A stretch of 64,000 nucleotides of DNA from Rhodoferax sp. GTDB lineage: Bacteria; Pseudomonadota; Gammaproteobacteria; Burkholderiales; Burkholderiaceae_C. The stretch is taken from NCBI RefSeq assembly GCF_010365055.1, contig NZ_JAAFHA010000004.1:72180-136179 (forward strand). The letters run 5' to 3'. The notes under the pieces are model-generated. The model made no database searches, was not told the origin of the DNA, and saw nothing but the letters and a program-made list of their open reading frames with translations. Both the position numbers and the translations under genes were made by a program. Of the stretch, positions 13,287 through 22,699 are shown one piece after another; positions within the stretch are counted from its first letter, which is position 1; each line of letters opens with the position of its first letter.

Positions 13287-13595
13287 ATGCCCACCGTCTC
13301 AGAAAAAGCCGCTGACTATTTGGTTGAGCCGCCTGCGCGCCACGTGCGCTTGTTTCGCAATGGAGCCAATCAGGCCGTGCGCATCCCCAAAGAGTTTGAG
13401 TTGCCGGGGCAAGAAGCCACTATGCGCCAGGTGGGCAACACGCTGGTGATTGAACCTGTCACACCCAAATTCGCCAAGGGCAGCAAGGCAGCGCTGCTTG
13501 ATGCACTGAAAAAAATGCAGCAGCTCGGCCCCTGTGAGGACGAGTTTCCCGATGTCGATGAAGGGCTCTTGCCACTGGACGACATCAACTTATGA
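13287..13595 (+). CDS. vapB: VapB-type antitoxin
   Basis: 102 residues with a SpoVT/AbrB-like DNA-binding beta-fold: HVRLFRNGANQAVRIPKEFE followed by a short VGNTLVIEPV strand is the VapB/MazE-like pattern. The acidic C-terminus would wrap the toxin. Start backed by AGGAGA. Its last four bases overlap the start of the toxin gene (ATGA), so the two are translationally coupled; VapB normally neutralises VapC and represses the pair. At about 100 residues it is longer than the common 70-80. Confidence 0.88.
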   Translation: MPTVSEKAADYLVEPPARHVRLFRNGANQAVRIPKEFELPGQEATMRQVGNTLVIEPVTPKFAKGSKAALLDALKKMQQLGPCEDEFPDVDEGLLPLDDINL

Positions 13596-14017
13596 GCGCT
13601 GAGACTTACCTGCTTGACACCAACGTCATCAGCCACTTGATGGCCAAGCCCGAAGGAGTCGTTGCCCAACGCTATGCAGCCAGATTGCTCGCGGATCAGC
13701 CCTGCCAGATGATCACCAGCGTTGTCGTGCAATGTGAATTGCTTTTTGGTCTGACAAAAAAGCCTTCGCCGCGCCTGCAAGCCGCCTATGACATCCAGAT
13801 GGCCAGCATGTCCGTGCTCCCGCTGGATGACACGGTGCCCGCGCACTATGCCACGATCCGCGCCCACCTGGAACGCCAAGGTACCCCTATCGGCCCCAAT
13901 GACACACTCATCGCCGCCCACGCGCTGGCACTGGATGCCACGCTCGTCTCAGGCGATGCAGAGTTTGCCCGCGTGCCGGGTTTGCGAGTGGAGAACTGGC
14001 TGACATTTGCAACCTAA
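13592..14017 (+). CDS. vapC: VapC-type PIN-domain ribonuclease toxin
   Basis: 141-residue PIN domain. The acidic metal-binding residues can be seen: Asp9 in LLDTNV, Glu in VQCELLFG, Asp in GPNDTLIAAHAL and Asp in VSGDAEFA. VapC toxins cut specific tRNAs or rRNA and arrest growth until neutralised by VapB. Overlaps vapB by ATGA. The stop codon is directly followed by a copy of the dispersed repeat. Confidence 0.9.
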   Translation: MSAETYLLDTNVISHLMAKPEGVVAQRYAARLLADQPCQMITSVVVQCELLFGLTKKPSPRLQAAYDIQMASMSVLPLDDTVPAHYATIRAHLERQGTPIGPNDTLIAAHALALDATLVSGDAEFARVPGLRVENWLTFAT

Positions 14018-16186: not shown

Positions 16187-16400
16187 CAATGCTCCTGGAT
16201 CAGTTTGAAATCGACAATGAAGATGGTCGGGTCACCCGGAGTATCCCCGGGTTTGGATTGAAATCGCGGCGCCGAGCAGCTCGGGTTTACCCGCAGCCGA
16301 TATAGCAAAACCAGGCATATCGATATGAGAACTCGGTCTGTGCGCAGCCCGATGCGGGCCTTAAGATGTGTCTTCATTTTTTTGCAATCGAAAGCCCCTC
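16187..16400. promoter_or_regulatory. Divergent trpB2/metY leader region
   Basis: 214 bases with several small hairpins, including a GCCCG/CGGGC stem followed by AAGATGTGTCTT and a run of seven T (about 16347-16383) just upstream of metY. This could be an attenuator-like structure in the metY leader; I could not match it to a known SAM or SAH riboswitch by eye. Confidence 0.35.
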
Positions 16401-17678
16401 ATGAAAATCGAAACCCTGGCCGTCCACGGCGGCTACACGCCCGAGCCCACCACCAAAGCGGTGGCGGTGCCGATTTACCAAACGGTGGCCTTTGCGTTTG
16501 ACGACACCCAGCACGGCGCTGATCTCTTTGACCTGAAAGTAGCGGGCAACATCTACAGCCGCATCATGAACCCGACTTGCGGCGTGTTGGAGGCGCGCGT
16601 GGCGGCCATGGAGGGCGGCATTGGTGCACTGGCGGTGGCCTCCGGCATGGCGGCGATAGCCTACGCGATTCAGACCATCACCGAGACGGGCGACAACATC
16701 GTGTCGGCCTCCACCTTGTACGGCGGCACCTACAACCTGTTTGCCCACACCTTCCCGCAAATGGGCATCGAGGTGCGCTTTGCCGATTACCGCGACCCGG
16801 CCTCCTTTGCCAAGCTGATCGACGCGCGCACCAAGGCGGTGTTTTGCGAAACCATTGGGAACCCGCTGGGCAACATCACCGACCTGGCCGCGCTCGCTCA
16901 AGTGGCCCATGCGCACGGAGTGCCCTTGATTGTGGACAACACGGTGGCCAGCCCGTACCTGTGCCGCCCGTTCGAGCACGGCGCCGACATCGTGGTGCAC
17001 TCGCTCACCAAGTACTTGGGCGGTCACGGCACCACCATTGGCGGCATCATTGTGGATTCAGGCAATTTCCCGTGGGCCGAGCACAAAGAGCGCTTCAAGC
17101 GCCTGAACGAACCCGATGTGAGCTACCACGGCGTGGTCTATACCGAGGCACTGGGCGCTGCTGCCTACATTGGCCGCGCCCGCGTGGTGCCGCTGCGCAA
17201 CATGGGCGCGGCCCTGAGCGCGCTGGCCGCCTTCCAGATTCTGCAGGGCATTGAAACGCTGGCCCTGCGCATGGACCGCATTTGCGACAACACCCTGCGC
17301 ATCGCCCAGCACCTGCAAGCGCACGCCAAAGTAGGCTGGGTCAATTACGCGGGGCTGCCCGGCCATGCGGACCACGCGTTGGTGCAGAAGTACCTGGGCG
17401 GCCGCGCCTCGGGCATCATCACCTTTGGTCTCAAGGCCAGCGACAGCCTGGAAGCCGGCGCCCGCTTTCAGGACGCGCTCAAGCTGTTCACGCGGCTGGT
17501 CAACATTGGCGACGCCAAGTCGCTGGCCTGCCACCCGGCCAGCACCACGCACCGCCAGCTCAACGCCGAGGAACTGGCCAAAGCCGGTGTCAAGCCCGAC
17601 ATGGTGCGTCTGTCAATCGGCATTGAGCACATTGACGACCTGCTGGAAGACCTGGAGCAAGCGCTCGCGGCGGTGTGA
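16401..17678 (+). CDS. metY: O-acetylhomoserine sulfhydrylase / aminocarboxypropyltransferase
   Basis: 425-residue Cys/Met metabolism PLP enzyme. It makes homocysteine directly from O-acetylhomoserine and sulfide. Motifs: YSRIMNPT near residue 52, PLP lysine in [11 protein letters not shown] (Lys204), and the long insertion around [20 protein letters not shown] that separates MetY from MetB/MetC. ATG 16401 ([11 protein letters not shown]) fits the family better than an upstream in-frame start. It stands alone, divergent from trpB2; an accessory island begins about 115 bases after its stop. Confidence 0.93.
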
Positions 17679-17792
17679 CTCTTCAAACCGGCTGAGCCGC
17701 AAGCCCCAACAGCCGTTCGCAGCAACGCAGCGCCAACAAAATCGCCATCGACTGGTGACCGCGTCAGACGCTGAGACTGACTATGTTGGCGT

Positions 17793-17927
17793 GGCGCCTT
17801 CGGCGCGAATGGCTTTTGTTGTTGTTGCAAATTGAAGGCGGCGCCTGATTTATAGATAATCAGGCTGCAGCCCCCGTAGACTGTGCGTGACCAGCTATCA
17901 AATTAGTGAACGACAAGAGGCTGTTTC
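17793..17927 (+). repeat. 135-bp direct repeat, left copy
   Basis: Begins GGCGCCTTCGGCGCGAATGG. It matches the stretch at 20856-20990 without gaps at about 112 of 135 positions by eye, in the same orientation. The first half has GGCGCC at both ends; the second half contains a minus-strand copy of the dispersed short repeat (CTATCAAATTA ... GCAGCCTGATT). It marks the left border of the ATPase/TOPRIM-like island. Confidence 0.8.
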
Positions 17928-18664
17928 TGGTTGACTTTCATGGCCTGGTGACGCCAATCGCGCATGCAGCCTTGTCAAACAGCTCACTGGATCGTTTTGG
18001 CGTGATGAATACCAACCCAAGCGCAGTGGGTGCGGTGCCTTCGATTTCTGGCGCCACTTTCAAGGCCAGGCTCTATAACTTGCGATGATGGCGGCTGAGC
18101 ACCCGCAGTGAATGTCGCACCCCAGAAACGCTCACAAAAAAGTCATGCTGCTGAGACTGAAACTGTGCACCAAAGCCAGTGTTTCTACTACTGCATAAGA
18201 CACACAGCGGTAGTAGTCGTCGGCGATCTGCTTCCCCCAAACCGGGCATTGAAACAGACATATCCCCGGCACGCAGGCCACCGCTGTGGGAGAACTGTGG
18301 TGATGCGCAGATGGATGATGGGGCGCAAATCGAGCCGCACTGGCATCTGGTGGCATAAACCGCACCGGACTACGAGGTAGATCAGCCCATCAGTTGGTGA
18401 CGTAGCGAAGCGGCGTTTCACATGCGCAGCATGAGTAGCTCTGCGCCCGGTATACGCCGCACACCGCAAATCACTCTTTCGTACATATTTCTTAGTGGTG
18501 GACGGAGCAGGTGGGCGGCAAATCGAGCGGTTTCACCCGGATCGCTGGCTGTTTCAAGGTGCGATACTAATTCTCTTGGTGTTGAAATGCCTATCCGTGC
18601 CCATCTGGCCGAGGTGATGGTGGAAAATGTCGCTTAGTCCTCTTTACCGGCCGAAGGCAACACC
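17928..18664. other. Unassigned spacer in the accessory island
   Basis: 737 bases between the left direct repeat and the ATPase gene. Short open frames exist on both strands but none has a recognisable family, good ribosome site or consistent codon use. It could be decayed sequence. The promoter for the ATPase pair should lie in its last 200 bases; no clear -35/-10 pair was identified. Confidence 0.4.
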
Positions 18665-19816
18665 ATGCTCATTAGCAACATCCGACTGAAAAACTGGCGC
18701 AACTTCCAATCGCTGGATTTACCCCTGCGGGACGTTTCCTATGTCCTGGGCCCTAACGCTTCTGGTAAGTCCAATCTGTTGGACGCGTTGCGATTTTTGC
18801 GCGATGTCAGCAAGACCAAGGGCGGCGGGCTACAGGCGGCTATTGCGGAGCGGGGCGGCATCTCCAAGGTGCGTTGTCTACACGCCCGACGAGACCCCGA
18901 GGTGGAGATCGATGTTGAACTCAGCCAGGAACTGGATCAGCCACCGGTGTGGCGATACGTTTTGGCCTTCAAACCAGAGGGCAAGGGGGCGCAGCGTCTG
19001 CTGGTGTCGCGTGAGCAGGTTTGGAAAGAAGGCGAACTGATCTTGAATCGACCAGACTCCAAGGACGATGTAGACGTGCTGCTGCGCACCCAAACGCATC
19101 TGGAGCAAATTCAGACCAATATCGAGTTCCGAGTCGTCGCGGATTTTTTGAGCGATATCACTTACCTGCATCTGGTGCCGCAACTGCTGCGCTTTGGCGA
19201 AAAAATTGGCGGGCATCGGCTTACGGACGATCCTTTTGGCCAAGGTTTTTTGGAACGCTTGTCCAAGACACCAGACAAGACCAGAAACTCGCGCCTGGCC
19301 AAGATTTCAAAAGCACTTTCGCTGGCGGTGCCGCAGTTTGAGGATTTGCGGTTTAGGAAAGACGACATGGGCCACCCACATTTGGAGGCGCGTTATGCCC
19401 ACCATCGCCCCCATGCGGGGTGGCAGTCTGAGGAGCATTTTTCAGACGGGACGTTGCGCTTGTTTGGCCTGCTCTGGGCGTTGCTGGAGGGCAGCTCCAT
19501 GTTGTTGTTGGAGGAGCCTGAAATTTCGCTCAACGATGCCATCGTGAAGGAAATCCCGCTGATAGTGGATCGCCTGCAACGCGATCGAAAAACAAAGCGT
19601 CAAGTGGTTTTGACCACACACAGCGATGCGCTTTTGAGTAACCCCGGCATTGATGAACGGGGTGTTGTGATTTTGGAAACCGGCAAGCAAGGCACCACGG
19701 GGCGTTCTTTGGATGCCAGCGAGCGGCAAGCGCTTGGTGCCGGGCTCAGTGTTGCGGAAGTGGTATTGCCCAAGACCCGCCCCGAGAAGGTATCGCAGCT
19801 GGGCTTGTGGCAATGA
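18665..19816 (+). CDS. AAA-family ATPase (AAA_21/OLD-like), partner of a TOPRIM-like protein
   Basis: 383 residues, an ABC/SMC-like ATPase of the kind found in defence systems. Visible: N-terminal strand with an RNF motif (LKNWRNFQSL), Walker A GPNASGKS at 29-36, signature-like segment FSDGTLRLFGLLW from 259, Walker B MLLLEEPE at 279-286, and a switch histidine in TTHSDALL at about 317-324. There is no fused nuclease domain, unlike OLD proteins; that function is probably supplied by the next gene, whose ATG overlaps this stop codon (ATGA). Start supported by GAAGG. PARIS AriA is a comparable ATPase, but I cannot assign this to PARIS. Confidence 0.85.
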   Translation: MLISNIRLKNWRNFQSLDLPLRDVSYVLGPNASGKSNLLDALRFLRDVSKTKGGGLQAAIAERGGISKVRCLHARRDPEVEIDVELSQELDQPPVWRYVLAFKPEGKGAQRLLVSREQVWKEGELILNRPDSKDDVDVLLRTQTHLEQIQTNIEFRVVADFLSDITYLHLVPQLLRFGEKIGGHRLTDDPFGQGFLERLSKTPDKTRNSRLAKISKALSLAVPQFEDLRFRKDDMGHPHLEARYAHHRPHAGWQSEEHFSDGTLRLFGLLWALLEGSSMLLLEEPEISLNDAIVKEIPLIVDRLQRDRKTKRQVVLTTHSDALLSNPGIDERGVVILETGKQGTTGRSLDASERQALGAGLSVAEVVLPKTRPEKVSQLGLWQ

Positions 19817-20415
19817 CGCCGATTGCCATTGCCACGGAAGACCAACTCAGTGAGGCGATTGCACTGCGCCTGATTTCTGAAGTTCCAACGCCACATTTCA
19901 TTCAACATAAGTTGGGCAAGACGGGGAATGGCTATCTGCGCTCCAGGATGGGTAGCTGGTACCAAATGGCGCAACAGCAGGTGATGCTGGTGCTGACGGA
20001 CTTGGATCGTGCAAATTGCTTGGTTGAGTTTCGCGACCAATGGTTGGCTGGTGCGCCCCCTGCCAATCTGCTTTTTCGGATTGCCGTGCGTGAAGTGGAG
20101 TCTTGGGTGCTAGCTGACCACGTTGCAATGCGGGCGCTGATTGGGGCAAAGGGTGTTTTGCCTGCCGCGCCTGATGAATTGGCAGACCCCAAGCAGTCGT
20201 TGTTAAAACTCGCGAAGAGCGCTCCCAAACAAATCAGAGAGGACTTGTTGAAAACAATCGACGGCAGTTTGGCGCAAGGCTTGGGATACAACGCCCGCCT
20301 GACCGCATGGGTCAACTCCGAATGGAGCCCGCAACGCGCATCAGAACGCTCCCCAAGCCTGGCGCGGACACGATTGCGGTTGAACGAGGTTGTCGGAGCG
20401 TTCGCTTTGCCTTAA
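19813..20415 (+). CDS. TOPRIM-like protein coupled to the ATPase
   Basis: 200 residues, family not firmly recognised. It has the outline of a TOPRIM metal-binding fold: an acidic residue after the first strand (AIATEDQLSEA, Glu9), a glycine turn (GKTGNG), then a hydrophobic strand ending in DxD (LVLTDLDR, Asp63/Asp65). A motif REVESWVLAD at 93-102 is shared in my recollection with DUF4276-like partners of AAA ATPases. The ATG overlaps the ATPase stop, so production is tied to the ATPase. By analogy to AriB or the OLD nuclease domain it may be a nuclease effector (inference). Confidence 0.65.
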   Translation: MTPIAIATEDQLSEAIALRLISEVPTPHFIQHKLGKTGNGYLRSRMGSWYQMAQQQVMLVLTDLDRANCLVEFRDQWLAGAPPANLLFRIAVREVESWVLADHVAMRALIGAKGVLPAAPDELADPKQSLLKLAKSAPKQIREDLLKTIDGSLAQGLGYNARLTAWVNSEWSPQRASERSPSLARTRLRLNEVVGAFALP

Positions 20416-20500
20416 TCTGGGTAATGGTGTGCTTTCCGCCACTCGCCGAGCAATCCCGCATTGTCACTAGCGCATGTGTGCCGGCGCTGGGTAATCTGCG

Positions 20501-20659
20501 CCATTATCTGCCCACTGCGCCGGTGCGGCGAATGTGGGCAACGCAGCCCTGCACATTGGCGCGGTGGCTTTCATCAACCGATTCGACTCCAGCCTGAACG
20601 GGCGTATTCACTTCCAAGTCTGCGTGGTCGATGGGGTATTTGCGGAGGTGGCGGGCAAG
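20501..20659 (+). pseudogene. IS91/ISCR-type transposase remnant
   Basis: In one frame about 50 residues are recognisable: AGAANVGNAALHIGAVAFIN then RFDSSLNGRIHFQVCVVDGV, the conserved segment of Y2-type IS91-family transposases (usually ...IGAVAFIHRFGSSLN.HVHFHVCVVDGVF). Neither the upstream zinc-binding half nor the downstream catalytic tyrosines are present, so it is a fragment. It indicates past IS91-type activity at this island, 85 bases after the TOPRIM-like gene. Confidence 0.75.
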
Positions 20660-20855
20660 CACTGGACTTCCAGGAACTTGCCATTCATGGTCGTCATGTA
20701 TCGCTGCACAGCCGAAGTAAATCCGTCTCTGAAGCAGTCACTGAGTCTGTTGGTCAAATTTGTTCGGGAAGTACGACAGACTGTTGGCATTCGACGCCAA
20801 TGGCGTCCATCACCGATTGTGAAAATCAGTCCATCAAATTTTCCGACCACTCTCA
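20660..20855. other. Unassigned sequence between IS91 remnant and right direct repeat
   Basis: About 196 bases with no recognisable coding content on either strand. Frames run through it but carry no family signature. It probably belongs to the decayed part of the island. Confidence 0.4.
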
Positions 20856-20990
20856 GGCGCCTTCGGCACGAGTGGCTTTGGTTGCTGTTGCAAGTTAAAG
20901 GCGGCGCCATATTTATAACAAATCAGGCTGCAGCCCGCGTGGGTATTGCGTGACAAGCTATCAAATTAATGAACAGCAGGAAGCTGTTTC
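20856..20990 (+). repeat. 135-bp direct repeat, right copy
   Basis: Begins GGCGCCTTCGGCACGAGTGG and ends AAGCTGTTTC, aligned end to end with 17793-17927 at roughly 83% identity by eye. It contains another minus-strand copy of the dispersed short repeat (TTTGATAGCTTGTCACGCAA then GCGGGCTGCAGCC). It ends 45 bases before the 3' end of phoD and closes the island. Confidence 0.8.
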
Positions 20991-21035
20991 ACGGCAACCT
21001 TTGTTGCTGGCGGTGCGTGACGCTGCCGTGCCAGC

Positions 21036-22649
21036 TCAAGCCCGCTCCAGCACCGGCCGCCCGACCTGCACGACAAAGCGGGCCAGGGTCTCAATTTTGG
21101 TATCTTGCCGCGTCACGTCGTCGACCACGCGCAAGCTGGTGGTAAGTTGCTGGGGCGTGAACTCCGCCACGCCGTAGCCTTGGCGCTGCGCGTCGGCAAA
21201 GACAAAGTGCGGGTTCTCGACCAGGAGTTGTGCGGTTTTGGCGTTGCCGCCGGCGTGCGAGCTGATGCTGGTGCCACAAAATTCCACCCCGACGCTGGCA
21301 CTGCCCGGGTCGGCGTAGTCGGCCTTGACGTGGCCGACCCAGTTTTCATGCACATCGCCGCCCAGAATCACCGGGTTGGCCACGGCGTGCTGGCGCAAGG
21401 CATCGGTCAAGCGCGTGCGCGCTGCGGGGTAGCCGTCCCAGCCGTCGTTCCAAAGGGTCTGACCGGGGCCCACTTTCAAATCACGCTGCCCAAACAGCGT
21501 GGGCTGGCCCAGCACGTTCCAACCGGACTCCTGCGCGGTGGCCTTGGCAAATTCGCCGTACAGCCAGCGCTCCTGTGTCTGGCCCAAGAGCGAACGGGCC
21601 GGATCATGCCACTGCGGGCAAGTCTCCGGCTTCACTTTGCCTGATCCCCGGCCCCCGCCGCTGGTGCAAGCCTGCGGGTCCTTGTACTGGCGACCATCGA
21701 GCAGGTAGAGCGAAGCGAGCTGGCCATAGGGCAAGCGGCTGTAAATGCGCAGCTCGGCGCCGCTCGCCAGACCGGCCAAGCCCCGCGTCAAGGCAGACGC
21801 GCGCACCGGCATGTGTTCGTACCAGGCTTGGTAGGCCGCCGCGCGCCGCGCCAAAAAGTGCTCTGGATTTGAGGGATCCAGCGCGCTGCTGTAGCCGGCT
21901 TGCGCGCCCGCGTAATCGTTTTGCAGCTCGTGGTCGTCCCAGGTCAGCAACCAGGGGCAAGCCGCATGCATCGCCTGCAAATCGGCCTCGCCCTTGTACA
22001 GCGCGTAGCGTTGGCGATAGTCGTCCAGACTCAAGACCCAGCCACCGGTGGGCACGCGCACTTTGCTGGTGAGCGCTGGGTATTCATAGATGTAGTCGCC
22101 CAGAAACAGCACCAAGTCCAGGTTTTCTTCGCACATGTGGCGCCAGGCGCTGAAATAACCGTCCTCCCATTTCTGGCACGAGGCATAGGCCAGCCGCAGC
22201 CGGGCCACGACCGGATCGGGCTTGGGCAGCGTGCGCGTACGCCCCACCGGACTGACAAAATCGCCGGCCATGAAACGGTAGAAATACCAGCGATCCGCCT
22301 CCAGACCCGCCACCTCGACGTGAACCGAATGCGCCAATTCGGGCCCAGCCATCGACTGCCCACTTTGCACGATACGGCTGAACTGCTCGTCGTGCGCCAG
22401 CTCCCAGCGCACCGGGACCACAGTCTGGCCCAACTCGCCACCGCCCCATAACGACGACTTGTCGTTATGCAAGCGCGTCCACAACACCACGCCATCGGGC
22501 GTCGGCGAGCCACTGGCAACGCCCAGCGTGAACGGATTGCGAGTCCACCGCGACTGGCTCCAGGCACTGCGCGGCAAACTCAAGTTCACGGCACTGGCGA
22601 AGAGCAGCTGGAGCAGACGGCGGCGATGGTTCACATCAAAGGATTTCAT
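21036..22649 (-). CDS. phoD: Alkaline phosphatase D (PhoD), exported
   Basis: 537 residues. PhoD is a secreted phosphodiesterase/alkaline phosphatase that releases phosphate from organic esters. The N-terminus NHRRRLLQLLFASAV has the arginine run and hydrophobic stretch of a Tat-type signal, with cleavage expected near residue 32 (SAWSQ). Metal-binding motifs: LFLGDYIYEYP, WDDHELQNDY, and GGDVHENWVGHV. ATG 22647-22649 (MKSFDVNHRRR) follows the family better than one six codons upstream. Monocistronic; divergent from a small membrane protein gene 50 bases away. Confidence 0.92.
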   Translation of the reverse strand: MKSFDVNHRRRLLQLLFASAVNLSLPRSAWSQSRWTRNPFTLGVASGSPTPDGVVLWTRLHNDKSSLWGGGELGQTVVPVRWELAHDEQFSRIVQSGQSMAGPELAHSVHVEVAGLEADRWYFYRFMAGDFVSPVGRTRTLPKPDPVVARLRLAYASCQKWEDGYFSAWRHMCEENLDLVLFLGDYIYEYPALTSKVRVPTGGWVLSLDDYRQRYALYKGEADLQAMHAACPWLLTWDDHELQNDYAGAQAGYSSALDPSNPEHFLARRAAAYQAWYEHMPVRASALTRGLAGLASGAELRIYSRLPYGQLASLYLLDGRQYKDPQACTSGGGRGSGKVKPETCPQWHDPARSLLGQTQERWLYGEFAKATAQESGWNVLGQPTLFGQRDLKVGPGQTLWNDGWDGYPAARTRLTDALRQHAVANPVILGGDVHENWVGHVKADYADPGSASVGVEFCGTSISSHAGGNAKTAQLLVENPHFVFADAQRQGYGVAEFTPQQLTTSLRVVDDVTRQDTKIETLARFVVQVGRPVLERA

Positions 22650-22699
22650 GGACTGGTTTGAACGCATTATGGCCAGTCCCTCCCGCCCCGGCCTTGTCC

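Follow-up and report, generated by a model that had tools for sequence, protein, structure and literature searches.

The window analysed here (the whole stretch of 64,000 nucleotides from Rhodoferax sp.) contains two genes joined by an ATGA overlap; the second gene could also start at a GTG at 19807 (Table 1). The pair sits alone on an island between direct repeats, and its immediate flanks are metabolic-type genes (metY-like and phoD-like), not a defence island. The IS91-type remnant on the island is real but short; the Y2_Tnp match in the frame 20534–20953 has an E-value of 8.6e-4 and 19.8 bits, just below the curated 20.9. The overlapping genes, the isolated position, the repeats and the IS91 debris had all been described in the original prediction, which was made from the letters of the DNA alone, and all were recovered. 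A promoter and terminator scan of the locus gave no clear excess over shuffled sequences (1 versus 1.3, and 6 versus 4.6 with an s.d. of 2.6). Elsewhere in the window, a PIN-domain protein encoded at 13592–14017 (Pfam PIN, 76.5 bits) is a candidate VapC-like toxin; it has no match in PADLOC at E ≤ 1e-5.

Table 1. Coordinates of the gene pair and of the surrounding features in the window.
Feature	Position	Strand	Basis or remark
HEC-01A: ABC/OLD-type ATPase, 383 aa	18665..19816	+	Pfam AAA_21, PADLOC PDLC04180
HEC-01B: DUF4276-like, putative TOPRIM protein, 200 aa, proposed nuclease effector	19813..20415	+	PADLOC PDLC04194/PDLC04193
metY-like gene	16368–17678	+	left border of island
phoD-like gene	21036–22667	-	right border of island
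Island between metY-like and phoD-like genes	17679..21035		both genes adjoin in six congeners (0–329 bp)
Left direct repeat, 135 bp, begins 115 bp past metY-like stop	17793..17927	+	
Right direct repeat, sharing 83% identity with the left repeat	20856..20990	+	
IS91-type Y2 transposase remnant	20558..20743	+	Pfam Y2_Tnp, residues 9–70 of frame starting 20534
Near-identical block, 2 mismatches in 2594 bp versus sister species	18123..20716		sequence comparison

The first gene encodes a complete ABC-type ATPase. Pfam AAA_21 covers residues 27–325 with 136.5 bits, and the protein contains the stretches GPNASGKSN, FSDGTLR, LLLLEEPE and THS, which we take to be the Walker A motif, the signature, the Walker B motif and the H-loop, respectively. 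No nuclease family was found in it by Pfam, nor among the best 25 of 110 and the best 25 of 42 families in two further searches, and the listed matches to OLD, GajA and AriAB models fall on their ATPase parts, in agreement with the earlier view of an ABC-like ATPase lacking a nuclease of its own. An AlphaFold model of the ATPase (pLDDT 89.7) found its best PDB fold matches in PtuA of retron Ec78/Eco7 and of Septu; SMC and Rad50 heads are also among the first 50. By sequence, residues 2–54 match GajA (E = 2.7e-6). An AbiLi profile matches with 75.8 bits (E = 7.6e-22) and the PARIS AriA-type model PDLC02980 with 116 bits (E = 6.4e-34), both below the 504 bits of the HEC-01A model described next, AbiLi far below. 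The PDLC02980 match may be unspecific, since this model has 304 positions, as does Pfam AAA_21, and may be a general one.

Both proteins match models in PADLOC-DB 2.0.0 (2023) over nearly their full length. PDLC04180 (HEC-01A) aligns its positions 1–380 of 382 with residues 1–381 of the ATPase (E = 7.1e-152, 504 bits), and the partner is matched by PDLC04194 (HEC-01B; E = 4.6e-52, model positions 5–197 of 204) and by PDLC04193 (HEC-01B; E = 3.7e-48, positions 3–192 of 195). Judged by these matches, the pair belongs to HEC-01, a candidate defence system already in the catalogue, and is a new example and not a new system. The original prediction had presented it as an undescribed two-gene system, a claim to be given up if some named defence system proved closely similar; HEC-01 does, and the claim of novelty therefore falls.

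The name HEC-01 reportedly comes from a 2024 preprint by Payne et al. The abbreviation stands for Hma-embedded candidate, and a 2024 preprint is cited as its source in PMC12988326, where several HECs, HEC-06 included, are stated to have had antiviral activity. HECs are described elsewhere as genes between Hma genes with confirmed phage resistance, HEC-04 being an ATPase fused to a TOPRIM domain and active against T4 and T5 (PMC12111858). A 2025 paper names HEC-01 as one of the defence systems in strains of Desulfovibrio piger (PMC12724379). Literature searches for DUF4276, and for HEC-01 together with PADLOC, found no paper in the collection searched, and a word search of the main texts of PMC12629846 and PMC13092281 did not find HEC.

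The partner protein is DUF4276-like, one of the comparisons proposed earlier; its score against Pfam DUF4276 (PF14103) is 20.1 bits, under the curated cut-off of 30.2 for membership. The acidic/DxD pattern that had been noted in it consists of E9 and D63-L-D65. An AlphaFold model built with a 14-row alignment has strands at residues 2–8, 28–34, 57–63 and 86–91 that alternate with helices in the TOPRIM strand order. E9 follows strand 1 and D63 and D65 end strand 3, the positions expected for a TOPRIM fold. The model has an overall pLDDT of 86.8 and is least confident at residues 61–80, the site of D63 and D65 (mean 63 at residues 61–70 and 58 at 71–80). In a Foldseek search of the PDB the top match is the OLD TOPRIM domain 6nk8_B (probability 0.94, E = 0.015), with other OLD chains at probabilities of 0.54–0.66. 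MogA-type (molybdenum-cofactor) and EIIA folds rank 2–4, directly behind OLD, and topoisomerase I, topoisomerase VI A and a PARIS chain (8ux9) follow at 0.12–0.25; none of the 760 PDB matches at E ≤ 10 reaches an E-value of 0.001. The best match among viral models is an RloB-like protein (probability 0.97, E = 0.011). At the sequence level, a PDB search with the partner profile gave nothing beyond a single match at E = 1.7, and neither RloB nor AbiLii matches the partner in Pfam or, among the matches listed, in PADLOC. The TOPRIM fold of the original prediction is supported in strand order, in the placement of the E and DxD residues and in the OLD domain as top match, and is less secure in the E-value of only 0.015 and in the uncertainty of the model at D63–D65. 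Overall, the model moderately supports a TOPRIM-like fold for HEC-01B.

Profile comparisons suggest a similar assignment. HEC-01B against 13 OLD TOPRIM domains gave 44%, over only 27 columns around the DxD strand, where reversed controls gave 0.15–0.16%; across the comparisons such controls ranged from 0.15 to 0.23%. A second, more distant HEC-01B/DUF4276 group of six proteins, itself found with a HEC-01B model, gave 99.2% against the HEC-01B family and 85% against OLD TOPRIM; two ATPases of this group match a HEC-01A model as well (E = 1.4e-173 and 8.8e-165). The profile link of HEC-01B to OLD TOPRIM is weak. The comparison with two DUF4435 proteins (0.17%) is uninformative because DUF4435 against OLD, which served as positive control, failed as well (0.6%).

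To describe conservation, the best 80 of 335 relatives were used, which together with two viral loci give 82 homologous loci. The alignments have 79 rows, the window included, and omit L042 (a 100% protein copy) and L048, L075 and L084 (cut). In HEC-01B, E9, D10, D63, D65, K127, Y159 and N160 are invariant in all 79 rows. None of these residues belongs to the pattern with which the relatives were found; the two viral loci were retrieved with two patterns, one of which includes E9. E96, W98, A101 and D102 are likewise unvarying, partly by construction, since they are part of the relatives' search pattern. Among the 14 rows collected by profile, the invariant residues are E9, G38, D63, E96, D102 and S182, and D65 is replaced by Glu in one row. 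The invariant E9, D63 and D65 are residues to mutate for testing the mechanism. In the ATPase, G29, N31, A32, G34, K35, S36, N37, S260, D261 and G262 are invariant in the 79 rows, as are E283, E284, P285 and H319. The ATPase is the better conserved protein (mean pairwise identity of 57% versus 42% for HEC-01B), and the pairwise identities of the two proteins correlate with r = 0.76, the pairs not being independent.

The PADLOC rule for HEC-01 presumably asks for adjacent genes, A then B. This is the order in the window, and the ATPase lies directly upstream of HEC-01B in 80 of the 82 loci; the spacing between the genes ranges from -14 to +5 bases for the start codons picked by the script. In the two exceptions (L048 and L075) no more than about 115 bases of contig precede the gene, and what lies upstream is hidden. 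With every locus that can be read showing this arrangement, the pairing of the ATPase with HEC-01B is beyond chance.

The relatives in the tree span 14 phylum groups, one archaeon (Methanophagales) among them, and 7 of the 79 rows are without a group. Phylum labels change 17 times on the tree, versus a minimum of 13 and 27.4 in shuffles; the tree as a whole clusters by phylum, and some phyla intermingle, such as Thermodesulfobacteriota and Pseudomonadota. Closer to the window, the HEC-01B model matches at E ≤ 1e-6 in 21 of 349 genomes of the order (own genome included), 8 of them below 1e-40, and in 0 of 14 control genomes. Within the genus, 8 of 89 genomes have a match (own included); identity is at least 63% in only 3 of them and 31–35% in the other 5. 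With the single protein as tblastn query, no homologue was found on plasmids (E ≤ 1e-5) or in phages (E ≤ 0.01); among viral contigs, one protein as query found none and the alignment found two. A genome of the same family carries a two-gene ATPase and DUF4435 pair that is PARIS-like (L144:11–2304).

A neighbourhood survey, as proposed with the original prediction, found the homologues in variable places and not mainly as core genes. Among the neighbours of the relatives are genes for restriction and for methylases, mad3 (3 of 101 and 2 of 144 neighbouring ORFs) and Hma genes (HmaA 1 and HmaB 2 of 144; none in the other 101 ORFs among the best 25 of 101 families listed), and many neighbours are ordinary core-type genes or enzymes. 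At E ≤ 1e-15, PADLOC gave 101 families for 101 near ORFs and 144 families for 144 (245 of 248 near ORFs tested, three over 1500 aa having been dropped), versus 88 families for 145 of 225 far ORFs. Families with more than one matching member, among the best 25 each, number 11 and 19 for the two near sets and 0 for the far set. Enrichment of defence genes around the pair would be weak at most, because related models repeat, the ORFs were called mechanically and the near ORFs are longer than the far ones (mean 403 versus 328 aa).

The pair is patchy and mobile. A close phoD (at least 64% identity) is present in 11 of 35 congeners. In six of these (L125–L129 and L131) the metY-like gene lies beside phoD with gaps of 0, 0, 9, 9, 43 and 329 bp, versus 3357 bp in the window, and neither 135-bp repeat was found at these six empty sites; one of the six congeners (G376) has a divergent HEC-01B elsewhere. 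In L130, L132 and L133 metY was not found within the fetched stretch, and L134 and L136 are cut. In a sister species (G403; L042 and L170) the island is present at the same place. The two mismatches in the block shared with this species are both silent and both in the ATPase gene, leaving the proteins 100% identical, and each end of the block lies no more than about 200 bp away from a 135-bp repeat. The flanks differ by 4–23% per bin of 200–300 bp (identities of 92–96% in metY, 77–95% on the phoD/polA side and 79–91% on the trpB side). Since silent sites in the pair are nearly unchanged, the comparison points to recent exchange between the species rather than selection, unless two metagenome bins were collapsed. 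The near-identical block, if it is not such an assembly collapse, would show clearly that a candidate two-gene defence unit has moved recently.

In the sister species both contigs break at window positions 18504–18509. Each ends in 139 bases that do not belong to the island, and the two overlap by 6 bases, a pattern expected from an insertion element about 155–160 bp upstream of the ATPase start. The full 135-bp repeat occurs in the own genome only at the two places flanking the pair. Its core (window 17848–17907, about positions 56–115, some 45–60 bp) recurs at 16 or more other places at E ≤ 0.01, with 40 of 56 candidates scored. The stretches between the repeats and the genes do not recur in the genome at E ≤ 0.001, except that 73 bp of the right-hand stretch do so at 79%. 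The repeat may be an ordinary intergenic repeat. Beyond the catalogue entry, the analysis adds a TOPRIM assignment with its limits, target residues, a strict pairing, an empty site and a likely recent exchange.

AAA ATPases paired with toxic TOPRIM_OLD partners were described from neutralisation assays in E. coli as 'AAA-neutralised pairs', and RloB as related to OLD_TOPRIM (PMC10440598). In PARIS, AriA is reported to hold AriB, a TOPRIM tRNase, until a phage protein is sensed, and an AriB E26A mutant gives no ribosome stalling (PMC12409363). Since HEC-01 has the parts of PARIS and of the AAA:TOPRIM_OLD pairs, we propose that it likewise combines a sensor and holder with a toxic nuclease. Most likely, HEC-01A forms a multimeric sensor that would bind HEC-01B and hold it inactive. 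A phage product or a phage-caused change would alter the ATPase, and HEC-01B would then be released or activated as a metal-dependent nuclease and stop the infected cell, probably by cutting host RNA or DNA. We give this reading a probability of about 0.58. The ATPase fold, nearest to PtuA and then to SMC and Rad50 heads, fits a multimeric holder. We infer the nuclease activity, the holding by the ATPase, the trigger and the abortive outcome, and likewise the defence function of the pair.

The same ATPase fold could also be read differently. The model resembles DNA-handling SMC and Rad50 heads besides PtuA, and the TOPRIM domain nearest in fold to HEC-01B is that of OLD, OLD proteins being reported to cut DNA (PMC10568477); HEC-01 could thus restrict plasmid or phage DNA in the manner of Gabija or Wadjet, the ATPase recognising foreign DNA and the TOPRIM protein cutting it directly with no killing of the cell. 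We consider this unlikely, given that neither a helicase nor another third gene is common to the loci of the pair (36 of 248 neighbouring ORFs share a homologue with the neighbours at another locus, and the largest cluster covers 5 of 77 loci) and that split ATPase/TOPRIM systems such as PARIS and the AbiL-like pairs are reported to act as toxin and holder. It is quite improbable that the pair is a plain toxin–antitoxin or addiction module that keeps a mobile block, with phage defence secondary or absent. The small mobile block and the overlapping two-gene operon would suit such a module, and the neutralisation assays of AAA ATPase and TOPRIM_OLD toxin pairs, together with an AAA-neutralised pair of another toxin type that gave no hit in a phage screen, are in its favour (PMC10440598). 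Against it, HECs are described as lying between Hma defence genes (PMC12111858), a few Hma genes lie near the relatives, and the ATPase-first order and the large, sensor-like ATPase would fit a triggered system.

A further alternative is that HEC-01B is no nuclease but another alpha/beta protein with an E/DxD pattern. In its favour are the weakness of the fold matches, with MogA-type and EIIA folds close to OLD in score, and the low certainty of the model around D63–D65. The placement of E9, D63 and D65 at the TOPRIM positions of the model, their invariance in the 79 rows and a profile link to OLD TOPRIM that exceeds the reversed controls argue otherwise, and we leave this alternative only a slight chance. 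A more far-reaching form of the sensor-and-nuclease proposal is doubtful in our view: HEC-01B/DUF4276 might be a TOPRIM lineage of its own, a toxic tRNA-cutting RNase held by its ATPase in a split architecture that evolved separately beside PARIS and AbiL, with the block of about 2.6 kb as a self-contained cassette that crosses species by recombination near short flanking repeats.

Among known systems, the OLD nucleases and Gabija GajA share with the pair the type of ATPase (residues 2–54) and the TOPRIM-like fold predicted for the partner, but in OLD proteins (classes 1–3) and GajA the ATPase and TOPRIM parts are on one polypeptide, whereas here they are encoded by two genes. OLD ATPases linked to TOPRIM, with their gene neighbourhoods, are said to have been collected and described earlier than PARIS and Gabija (PMC12839542). 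AbiL (AbiLi/AbiLii, RloB-type) and the AAA:TOPRIM_OLD pairs of PMC10440598 resemble HEC-01 in having an ATPase with a separate TOPRIM effector. The AbiLi profile matches the ATPase, and among viral models HEC-01B is closest in fold to an RloB-like protein; AbiLi nonetheless scores far less than HEC-01A, and the partner has no RloB or AbiLii match among those listed.

PARIS, too, encodes an ABC ATPase and a TOPRIM protein in adjacent separate genes. AriB of PARIS is of the DUF4435 type, whereas HEC-01B is DUF4276-like and of 200 residues. Membership in PARIS is rejected because the partner has no DUF4435 match at E ≤ 1 in Pfam, nor an AriB match among those listed in PADLOC, which agrees with the earlier remark that the partner is not a DUF4435 AriB. 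The closest counterpart is HEC-01 itself, with near full-length model matches for both proteins and the same two-gene order as in the relatives; the copy in the window differs in standing alone between metabolic-type genes, outside any Hma locus from which the name derives. The profile link between DUF4276 and OLD TOPRIM would place HEC-01 with the split ATPase/TOPRIM systems, such as PARIS and AbiL.
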